33,893 bases of DNA. Source: Desulfobacterales bacterium S7086C20. Its GTDB lineage: Bacteria > Desulfobacterota > Desulfobacteria > Desulfobacterales > C00003060. Position 1 is the stretch's first letter, and the number at the start of each line of letters is the position of its first letter. The notes below the pieces were generated by a model that worked only from the letters and a program-made list of their open reading frames with translations, was not told the origin of the DNA and did no database searches. Both the position numbers and the translations under genes were made by a program. The stretch spans positions 1-33,893 of the forward strand of contig MAVP01000010.1 of assembly GCA_001751075.1 (NCBI GenBank). Direction: 5' to 3'. Below are positions 12,122-29,619 of the stretch, piece by piece.

Positions 12122-12156
12122 TCTCTGCTTGGAATCGAAGAGATTCCAAGCAGAGA
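12122..12156. other. Perfect 15-bp stem hairpin, 5-nt loop
   Basis: TCTCTGCTTGGAATC-GAAGA-GATTCCAAGCAGAGA; no flanking T tract. Confidence 0.9.
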
Positions 12157-12160
12157 TGCG

Positions 12161-12354
12161 AGTTAGTGTCCATCCACGAACCGTCAAAAACCGACGGACA
12201 CTGACGTAAGTTTCCAATTCAGAAATGAGCAGTTTTTTCTCTGAGCAAGGCCGCACAAGGGTTTACGCCGAGGCGTAATCCTCGTACGTCGCAGGCGAAA
12301 ACCCGCGGAGAACGCAGCTCAGAGGGAAAAAGGCCATTTCTGGATGGAAACTAG
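12161..12354. repeat. Palindromic element family B, copy 1 (downstream of adk)
   Basis: AGTTTCCAATTCAGAAATGAGCAGTTTTTTCTCTGAGC is imperfectly inverted as GCTCAGAGGGAAAAAGGCCATTTCTGGATGGAAACT; same architecture as 16988-17175 in reverse complement. Confidence 0.8.
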
Positions 12355-13035
12355 TTAATCCTTCAGCCTCGACATCAATTCTGCCGTTACTTCTTGTACG
12401 CCAGGAGCCCCGTCAAGGATAATATATTTGATTTTCCCCTCTTTCTCGGCCAGAGCCTTGAAATAATAAGCTGCGGCCATGGTTCCGGTTTCTGTGTCGT
12501 AGTAGATGCCATGACGCTTGTTTATGGCTTCTTCATCCTGATCGTCAGAACGAGTTGATAGCTCGCCCCCACATACCCGGCACTTATCACCATCCGGTTT
12601 AATAGCATCTATAAAGATATTATTCGGATGGTTATTGTCGTTTGCGCAAAGCCTACGTCCCATGATTCGATTCTTCGCAATTTCTCTGTCAAGAATTACC
12701 TCAACAACAATACTCAGATCTAGACCTGAGGCCTTAAGAGCCTCATCCAGTTTTGTGGCCTGCTCTTTGTTTCTAGGAAATCCATCCAAAAGCCAGCCGT
12801 TCTTGCAATCATCTTGCTGTAAACGTCCCAGAATCATTGGAATAGTAATCTCGTCAGGCACCAACTCACCACGATTAATATACTCCTTTGCCTTGAGACC
12901 GATCTCTGTTCCTTTCCCAATATTCTCCCGGAAGATCGCACCTGATTCAATGTGTGGAAGATTGTACTCTTTCTTCAAGATTGCTCCCTGCGTCCCTTTG
13001 CCGCTGCCGTTGGGTCCAAACATCAAGACATTCAT
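12355..13035 (-). CDS. adk: Adenylate kinase
   Basis: MNVLMFGPNGSGKGTQ, GWLLDGFPRNKEQA, GRRLCANDNNHPNN; conserved length. Confidence 0.95.
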   Translation of the reverse strand: MNVLMFGPNGSGKGTQGAILKKEYNLPHIESGAIFRENIGKGTEIGLKAKEYINRGELVPDEITIPMILGRLQQDDCKNGWLLDGFPRNKEQATKLDEALKASGLDLSIVVEVILDREIAKNRIMGRRLCANDNNHPNNIFIDAIKPDGDKCRVCGGELSTRSDDQDEEAINKRHGIYYDTETGTMAAAYYFKALAEKEGKIKYIILDGAPGVQEVTAELMSRLKD

Positions 13036-16567: not shown

Positions 16568-16987
16568 ATGAACCGCAGGTACAAATACATAGAACATACC
16601 GCAGATTTGGGGTTTAAGGCTTATGGAATCACCGTTGAAGAATTGTTCGTCAATGCCGCCGAGGCTCTGTTTGAAGTACTAGTCGCACTCGACAGCGTCC
16701 GGGCAAGAGACAAACGTATCATTCATGTCGATTCCATAGACCTGGAAACCTTAATGGTTAGCTGGCTGAACGAACTCCTCTACCACTTTGAAATGGACGG
16801 CTTTCTTCTGCAAAGATCTCAAATTGACAAGATGGCCAGTTGTTCCCTTCAAGCAACAGTGTGCGGAGAAAGCATAGACCCGGCACGTCATGAAATAAGA
16901 ACGACCATCAAGGCGGCTACTTATCACCAACTTTATGTAAAGCGACTCAACGATCTCTGGGAAAGCCGGGTCTTTTTGGATCTATAA
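16568..16987 (+). CDS. Archease (RtcB cofactor)
   Basis: YKYIEHTADLGFKAYGITVEELFVNAAEALFE; SWLNELLYHFEMDGFL; AATYHQLYV. Confidence 0.93.
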   Translation: MNRRYKYIEHTADLGFKAYGITVEELFVNAAEALFEVLVALDSVRARDKRIIHVDSIDLETLMVSWLNELLYHFEMDGFLLQRSQIDKMASCSLQATVCGESIDPARHEIRTTIKAATYHQLYVKRLNDLWESRVFLDL

Positions 16988-17175
16988 GCTAGTGTCCATC
17001 CAGAAATGGCCCTTTTCCACAATCTCGGCGTCAAACGGCACGGTTGCTTGTGCGACGTACCACGGTACGTCTCCGCACAACCCCTTGTTTTCCTTGACCT
17101 TGTGGAAAATTGCTCATTTCTGGATTGGAAACTTTGCTAGTGCCCATTATTTTATAAGCTGTTCGTGGATGGACA
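16988..17175. repeat. Palindromic element family B, copy 2 (archease-rtcB spacer)
   Basis: AGTGTCCATCCAGAAATGGCCCTTTTCCACAA inverted as TTGTGGAAAATTGCTCATTTCTGGATTGGAAACT; reverse complement collinear with 12161-12354. Confidence 0.8.
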
Positions 17176-17215
17176 CAAGCTGGTATTTATCATTACTGCA
17201 GAAAAGGGACTCGTC

Positions 17216-18664
17216 ATGTCAACCAATGTGGCCATAAAAAAACTTGATGATTATCGCTGGATTATTCCAAGATCAGGCAAGATGAAAACAGAAGGGCTCG
17301 TCTACACGGATGAGGCCATGTTAGCCACGATCAAGAAAGACGCAAGCCTTCAGCAGGTGGCAAATGTGGCCTGTCTTCCCGGAATCGTGGGTCGCTCCAT
17401 GGCTATGCCGGATATACACTGGGGGTACGGCTTTCCTATTGGCGGCGTTGCTGCCTTTGACATGGAAGAGGGTATCATCTCACCTGGCGGTGTTGGCTAT
17501 GATATCAATTGTGGGGTAAGACTCATCCGCTCCGACCTGGATGCCGCAGAGATCAGGGGCCACATACCCAGGCTCCTAAAAGCCCTGTTCAAGAATATCC
17601 CAGCTGGTATTGGGTCCAGGCGCAAAGATCTTAAGGTTTCCGGCAAAAAAATGAACGAGCTTCTCATAAAGGGCGCTCAATGGACGGTTTCAAATGGCTA
17701 CGCCCATGCAGGGGACCTGGAGCATATCGAAGAGATGGGATGCATCCCCGGCGGAAACCCGGAGTATGTCTCTGAAAAGGCCCTTAACAGGGGTAAGAAC
17801 CAGCTGGGAACCTTGGGTTCTGGAAACCATTTTGTAGAGATTGGGTTTGTAGATGAAATCTATGATGAGGCTATTGCCGAAACGCTGGGGTTGCATAAGG
17901 GTCGGCTCACAGTTCTTGTCCATACCGGGTCGCGGGGCTTGGGACATCAGGTCTGTGATGATTATATTAAACTGCTGCTAAAGGCCTCGGGTAAATACGG
18001 GATAGACATTCCGGACAAACAACTCTGCTGCGCACCTATCAAGTCCACCGAGGGCAAACAGTATCTTGCAGCCATGGCTTGCGCAGCCAATTTTGCGTTT
18101 TGCAACCGCCAGATCATTACCTACTGGGTAGAAGAAACCTTCCAGGAAGTCCTTCAAATGGGACCCAAAGAACTCGCTTTTGATCTAGTATATGATATTT
18201 GTCACAATGTGGCGAAGATAGAAACACACGAAATAGATGGACATTTAAAGAAACTATGCGTTCACCGCAAAGGCGCCACCCGGGCCTTTCCACCCCATTC
18301 CGAGCTGATCCCACAGTGCTACAAAGAAGTCGGCCAGCCGGTGCTAATCCCAGGAGATATGGGTCGGTACTCCTACGTCCTTGTAGGCACTAAGACCGGT
18401 CTAATGGAGACATTCGGCAGTTGTTGCCACGGAGCAGGCAGAGTACTAAGCAGGCACAAGGCCAAAAAAGCGGCCAGGGGGCGGTCCATTATCAGGGAAC
18501 TGGAAGACCGCGGCATCTATGTACAAAGTGCCGGCAAAGGGACTGTAGCTGAGGAAATGTCTGAAGCATACAAGGACGTAAAAAACGTTGTGGATATAGT
18601 ACACAATGCAGGCATCGGCAAAAAAGTGGCCAAGCTTAAACCCATGGGCGTGATAAAAGGTTGA
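17216..18664 (+). CDS. rtcB: RNA-splicing ligase RtcB
   Basis: AMPDIHWGYGFPIGGVAAFD, GGVGYDINCGVRLI, GTLGSGNHFVEIG, HTGSRGLGHQVCDDY. ATG at 17216 more likely than the track start 17165. Confidence 0.96.
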   Translation: MSTNVAIKKLDDYRWIIPRSGKMKTEGLVYTDEAMLATIKKDASLQQVANVACLPGIVGRSMAMPDIHWGYGFPIGGVAAFDMEEGIISPGGVGYDINCGVRLIRSDLDAAEIRGHIPRLLKALFKNIPAGIGSRRKDLKVSGKKMNELLIKGAQWTVSNGYAHAGDLEHIEEMGCIPGGNPEYVSEKALNRGKNQLGTLGSGNHFVEIGFVDEIYDEAIAETLGLHKGRLTVLVHTGSRGLGHQVCDDYIKLLLKASGKYGIDIPDKQLCCAPIKSTEGKQYLAAMACAANFAFCNRQIITYWVEETFQEVLQMGPKELAFDLVYDICHNVAKIETHEIDGHLKKLCVHRKGATRAFPPHSELIPQCYKEVGQPVLIPGDMGRYSYVLVGTKTGLMETFGSCCHGAGRVLSRHKAKKAARGRSIIRELEDRGIYVQSAGKGTVAEEMSEAYKDVKNVVDIVHNAGIGKKVAKLKPMGVIKG

Positions 18665-24448: not shown

Positions 24449-24497
24449 GGACTGTCTCCTCTGATATAGTTTTGCCTGGCCTTTGACATCCTGAAGA

Positions 24498-24732
24498 TTG
24501 ACGACGTCGCAAAAAGTCCATCTGCAGCGTTGCGCTTCATCCCCGCCCTGTTAAATTCTCGCTACGCGAGACGGCGAAGCCGATTTAACAGGGTAAATCA
24601 CTGCGACGTACGATAAGTACGCCTCATTCCTCAAGACAGCGCCACTAAAGTGGCTTGAGAACAGTACGCGCGCCTTGCATCTGGAGTTTTTTACTGTGTC
24701 GTCTGTTTGTGGACTTTTTACAAGTCCATCAA
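24498..24732. repeat. Palindromic element A, copy 1 (235 bp)
   Basis: Near-identical to 29385-29619 (8 mismatches by eye); ends TTGACGACGTCGCAAAAAGTCCA / TGGACTTTTTACAAGTCCATCAA imperfectly inverted; nested internal hairpins. Confidence 0.93.
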
Positions 24733-29322: not shown

Positions 29323-29384
29323 AATACGCCTCCTTTCAATTTGGGCATCTAATTCCACCAATCTTCAATGTGCGATCATAAATG

Positions 29385-29619
29385 TTGACGACTTCGTAAA
29401 AAGTCCATCTGCGGCGTTGCGCTTCATCCCCGCCCTGTTAAATTCTCGCTACGCGAGACGGCGAAGCCGATTTAACAGGGTAAATCACTGCGACGTACGA
29501 TAAGTACGTCTCATTCCTCAATATAGCGCCACTGAAGTGGCTTGAGAACAGTACGCGCGCCTTGCATCCGGAGTTTTTTACTGTGTCGTCTGTTTGTGGA
29601 CTTTTTACAAGTCCATCAA
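29385..29619. repeat. Palindromic element A, copy 2 (235 bp)
   Basis: Near-identical to 24498-24732, same length. Confidence 0.93.

Follow-up and report, generated by a model that had tools for sequence, protein, structure and literature searches.

The two palindromic elements that follow the adk and archease genes in the window, the whole of contig C10 (33,893 nucleotides), are, judging by their sequence, copies of a non-autonomous transposon (MITE) of uncultured relatives of sulfate reducers (Desulfobacterales), here called family B. An ISNCY-family DDE transposase very probably mobilises the MITE in trans, and the target of this enzyme, YTANNTAR, would explain the copies at gene ends. The window belongs to a genome of 2.65 Mb in 241 contigs with a completeness of 95.7%.

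An earlier note on the window described two collinear elements of ~190 bp directly after the adk and archease stop codons. This description is correct. The two are composite palindromes of ~186 bp with exact limits at 12166–12351 (copy 1, 186 bp, minus strand) and 16992–17176 (copy 2, 185 bp, plus strand). The left end of copy 1 faces adk, the adenylate kinase gene (NF011102; 12355–13035, minus strand), and lies 3 bp past its stop codon TAA (12355–12357). The left end of copy 2 faces the archease gene (PF01951; 16568–16987, plus strand) and lies 4 bp past the stop. Downstream of copy 2 is rtcB, encoding an RNA ligase (RtcB, PF01139; 17216–18664, plus strand). Archease and rtcB are an RNA-repair pair, and both reading frames are intact with copy 2 between them (16568–18664). 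Both copies contain an imperfect palindrome of ~141 bp, which opens with GT(T/G)TCCATCCAGAAATGGCC and is closed by a degenerate inner copy of the end, GCTCATTTCTGAATTGGAAAC. A short spacer follows, and then a right arm of ~40 bp ending with TTCGTGGATGGACAC or TTTATGGATGGGCAC. The terminal inverted repeats of the MITE are GTKTCCATCCAGAAATGG at the left and GTGYCCATCCAYRAAY at the right. Its main length class is 176–188 bp, which is too short for a transposase gene.

In copy 1, the left terminal repeat is GTTTCCATCCAGAAATGG (12334–12351, minus strand), identical to the left end of the insertion sequence (IS) at locus L279 described below. The degenerate inner right copy of the terminal repeat, which closes the ~141-bp palindromic module, is CATTTCTGAATTGGAAAC (12210–12227, minus strand), the core hairpin tip, common to another repeat family (family A), is GAGGCGTAATCCTCGTACGTCGCAG (12270–12294, plus strand), and the right arm with its terminal TTCGTGGATGGACAC occupies 12166–12204 (minus strand). 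Copy 1 is flanked by the target-site duplication TAACTA at the left (12352–12357, minus strand), the first three bases of which are the adk stop codon, and TAACTC at the right (12160–12165, minus strand; 5/6 match). The corresponding parts of copy 2, all on the plus strand, are the left terminal repeat GTGTCCATCCAGAAATGG (16992–17009), the core GCGACGTACCACGGTACGTCTC (17052–17073) and the right terminal repeat GTTCGTGGATGGACAC (17161–17176). Its duplications are AAGCTA (16986–16991), which overlaps the archease stop TAA (16985–16987), and AAGCTG (17177–17182), again a 5/6 match. In the end CTAGTKTCC, which had been placed immediately after the stop codons, the flanking CTA belongs to the duplication and lies outside the element. 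Since their own duplications agree at only 5/6 positions, the window copies are not very recent. Just beyond the adk-side copy, at 12122–12156, there is a perfect 15-bp hairpin, TCTCTGCTTGGAATC-gaaga-GATTCCAAGCAGAGA. It may be an older adk 3' hairpin that was parted from its gene by the insertion.

Further copies, whose existence the earlier note had left to a genome-wide search, were gathered by pattern searches. A search of the 2.65-Mb genome gives 11 exact matches to TCCATCCAGAAATGGCC and 0 for a reversed-pattern control. When up to 3 mismatches are allowed, there are 51 left-end-like matches versus 1 in the control, and the inner right motif gives 30 versus 0. The MITE is present in dozens of copies in this genome and in more across Desulfobacterales. 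Of the 96 genomes searched, 16 carry exact left ends, and most of these belong to the window's genus. In named genomes, at least 117 stretches were detected, the matches listed being nearly all from Desulfobacteraceae, Desulfobacterales or unclassified Deltaproteobacteria. Other Desulfobacterales carry a simpler, symmetric form of ~141–143 bp without the right arm, in which exact duplications flank 7 of 24 copies (shuffled mean 0.9, maximum 4). The genome of the window also has a third subfamily, of the form GTGTCCATCCATAAATGGCATATTTTGG... (L222, L223, L225, L226, L230, L231 and L233), which keeps the plan of palindrome plus right arm with a different core; at L230 it is flanked by TAGGAG on both sides. 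In the relative G017 (L285–L293, L297 and L302), many contigs have a copy a few hundred bases or less from their end, and the element family probably breaks assemblies.

The footprint of mobility is clear. Only identical flanks were merged to obtain a set of 116 distinct complete composite copies, so that the set may include, from related species, some inherited copies besides the independent insertions. Of the 116, 66 show an exact 6-bp target-site duplication, while shuffled flanks give a mean of 4.6 and a maximum of 15. If at least 5/6 positions are required to match, the number rises to 93/116. Duplications of 5 bp and 7 bp are seen in 1 and 4 of these copies, respectively, and a smaller set of 88 copies gives an unchanged picture. 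The consensus of the duplicated site is TANNTA, preceded by Y and followed by R. The element is short, lacks a transposase gene, and has terminal inverted repeats and a duplication of fixed length; its dispersed copies are absent from orthologous loci and its ends are shared with an autonomous IS. Hairpins of the REP/BIME or IS200/IS605 type, moved by a Y1 transposase, are likewise palindromic, intergenic and multi-copy, but the 6-bp target duplications refute this origin and the partner is a DDE transposase, leaving it with practically no probability.

Neither of the two loci in the window has an element in relatives. It is absent after adk in all 17 other same-genus genomes, and none of the 13 relatives with a readable archease–rtcB junction has it there. 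Among the 14 relatives in which rtcB was found, archease is adjacent in 13 and not nearby in one, and the gap between the two genes is only 27–70 bp in four relatives without the element. These loci have diverged, with 70–78% identity in genes, which is too far for base-exact empty sites. After adk, many relatives have another hairpin, GGTGCCTGYCCGGAA...CCGGACAGGCACC (L346–L361), which looks like another repeat or a terminator.

The earlier note considered a conserved structure for RNA processing or termination as well as a 3'-UTR-targeting element. Such a structure, whether a terminator, an attenuator or a processing hairpin, would have been selected in the 3'-UTR of particular genes. Both window copies follow stop codons, and they fold much more stably than shuffled sequences (z = −7.8 and −5.7), but folding of this kind is expected of any palindromic MITE. 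The orthologous genes without the element and the 6-bp duplications largely refute this idea. Besides, many copies face gene starts or are located between divergent genes, with a gene 5' end on both sides in 21 of 101 copies, and an Rfam search gave no match. A conserved RNA structure is thus very improbable.

A candidate transposase was traced by way of Desulfosarcina widdelii. This species contains 12 identical single ends, GTGTCGATCCATAAATGG, which point to an IS of 1676 bp. Five copies of this IS were read: three are flanked by exact 6-bp TANNTA-type duplications, one by TAGCTA and TAGGTA (5/6), and one by the 7-bp TAGTTTA. Its transposase (P0001, 452 aa) matches the ISNCY family model NF033593 with 460.2 bits (E = 6e-138), well above the curated cut-off of 325 bits, and also matches DDE_Tnp_1. 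With P0001 as the query across the window's genus, an IS of 1705 bp was found in contig C327 of the genome G014 (L279, 453–2157), flanked by TAGCTA on both sides. Its open transposase gene encodes P0002 (454 aa; NF033593, 451.8 bits, E = 2.2e-135), which is 60% identical to P0001. The left end of this IS, GTTTCCATCCAGAAATGGCC, is identical to that of the MITE over 20/20 bases; the right end, GTGTCCATCC, agrees with that of the MITE over about the first 10 bases only. IS and short elements coexist both in G014, where a short copy is present at L049, and in D. widdelii. From its sequence, the 1705-bp IS is the probable autonomous partner of the MITE, and the shared ends, the target and the co-residence suggest that a transposase of the L279 type moves the MITE.

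No ISNCY transposase was detected in the fragmented genome of the window; the gene may be missing from the assembly, or it may have been lost. Intervals in L097, L166, L175, L143 and L168 were considered as complete IS copies and rejected, as they hold ordinary genes and no transposase. The ISNCY-like genes of G017 and G005 (39–41% identity) were also rejected as partners, having no matching ends. The absence of an ISNCY gene from the own genome and the short agreement of the right ends would fit a transposase of another family, with similar ends and a 6-bp target, as the mover of the MITE, the ISNCY IS being a relative that only shares its ends. However, the left ends agree at 20/20 bases, the type of target and the duplication length are the same in two ISNCY elements, and a search between paired ends in the loci examined gave neither a complete IS nor a transposase of another kind. 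We consider this second source of transposase improbable. Members of the ISDol1 subgroup of ISNCY generate 6–7 bp duplications. The open-access literature on ISDol1/ISNCY in connection with MITEs or Desulfo- hosts gave no description of this family; ISDol1 itself is mentioned briefly in one paper.

It can be proposed that the ISNCY transposase recognises the left end GT(T/G)TCCATCCAGAAATGG and the right end GTGYCCATCCAYRAAY, and makes cuts staggered by 6 bp in the palindromic target Y-TANNTA-R, and that gap repair then doubles TANNTA. Copies would accumulate past stop codons for two reasons. TAA or TAG can be inside the target, and such an insertion would cost the gene nothing, as the stop codon is either kept in the duplication or rebuilt as TA-G from the TA of the target and the first G of the element. 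The gene-end bias would come from the target together with the purging of harmful insertions.

The positions of the copies are consistent with this proposal. Neighbouring ORFs were delimited heuristically, simply by giving precedence to the longest. On this basis, 39 of the 101 copies with enough flank have the stop codon of an adjacent ORF (≥100 aa) inside the 8-bp target, and only three of the 101 are inserted inside an ORF. The commonest arrangement is a stop composed of the TA of the duplication and the first G of the element. For all 17 such copies that have a duplication, the site as reconstructed without the element reads TAG (9) or TAA (8) at this position, which indicates that the protein was unchanged. 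That copies are found at gene ends is largely due to the stop codon that the target frequently holds and that still functions after the insertion. The adjacency to stop codons is real, and the enrichment, for which the earlier note proposed a test, is modest: with an odds ratio of 2.4 (p = 0.007), the stop is inside the target in 29/88 insertions versus 25/146 non-ORF YTANNTAR sites taken at random. Most of the adjacency to stop codons can be attributed to the target, which contains TAA or TAG, and to the loss of in-gene insertions; an excess over random target sites remains, but it is modest. What had been described as a 3'-UTR-targeting element is indeed mobile, with 6-bp duplications and a matching IS. 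Its targeting of 3'-UTRs is real only in the weak sense that TANNTA often holds a stop and that in-gene insertions are rare.

The conserved orientation relative to the upstream gene, also proposed before, is true of the two window copies and is not a genome-wide rule. The left end comes first in 27 versus 12 of the stop-overlapping copies (p = 0.024), in 21 versus 11 of those that also have a duplication (p = 0.11), and in 33 versus 27 of all tandem insertions (p = 0.52). An orientation bias is possible, and at best weak. In view of these counts, the common orientation of the pair in the window is no evidence of a rule. Copies at gene ends could have been kept later by the host as terminators or protectors of mRNA 3' ends, which could yield a bias for the left end first. 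The surplus of insertions at stops relative to random target sites, the 27 to 12 ratio and the strong hairpins are compatible with such use. But the orientation is not significant in the two other comparisons, harmless insertion alone yields an equal stop excess, and there is no cross-species conservation. Retention by the host is unlikely, though a side-effect of MITE copies as terminators is possible on the basis of their predicted folding.

The core of family B is not restricted to it. The core hairpin tip GCGACGTAC-N(3–6)-GTACGYCTC occurs 60 times in the genome versus 0 in the control, and in the 30 loci read it is always inside family B or the palindromic family A. Family A (window 24488–24732 and 29375–29619; L379–L407), with the ends TGACGACTTCGYAAAAAGTCCA, is MITE-like, and has a 4-bp duplication in 11/20 copies. 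Like family B, it is palindromic and present in dozens of copies; the two have in common a 25-nt core hairpin tip, CTGCGACGTACGAWAAGTACGYCTC, and an 18-nt piece, GGCTTGAGAACAGTACGC. Unlike family B, its ends are TGACGACTTCGYAAAAAGTCC and its duplication is 4 bp. Based on the different ends and duplication lengths, family A is apparently served by another transposase. The common core would imply either exchange between the families or a function of the core. It is a speculative and rather doubtful idea that two MITE families with apparently different transposases, one generating 6-bp TANNTA and the other 4-bp duplications, share an interchangeable core hairpin. If so, the core would be a functional module that passes between transposon families and offers a site where a host or replication factor acts or where hairpin-mediated exchange takes place.

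By its sequence features, family B is an ISNCY-type MITE. MITEAba12 of Acinetobacter, related to ISAba12, has target duplications in 36/90 copies, which are 9 bp long and without a sequence motif (PMC6382973). Both are short and non-autonomous, share ends with a co-resident IS and have duplications in a fraction of copies (66/116 here), whereas family B has a 6-bp duplication, the target YTANNTAR and an ISNCY-family partner. The Chunjie MITE of Geobacter uraniireducens is described as 178–235 bp long, with dozens of intergenic copies bearing duplications and an operon insertion that does not break the operon (PMC10969869). By comparison of descriptions only, the copy between archease and rtcB likewise spares its operon. 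The ISNCY insertion sequences (NF033593; L279 and L264–L268) provide the transposase family, and their ends and target match those of the MITE; the MITE differs in having no transposase, and matches the same-genus IS over no more than ~20 bp of the left end and ~10 bp of the right end.

The guess of a conserved RNA element is replaced by a mobile element with a probable transposase, and an ISNCY-type MITE can now be given a defined target, YTANNTAR. The family, the copies of which also coincide with many contig breaks, can be masked when these genomes are annotated. By a simple rule, this transposon could insert at stop codons and leave the protein as it was: TAA or TAG forms part of the target, and the first base of the element rebuilds TAG.
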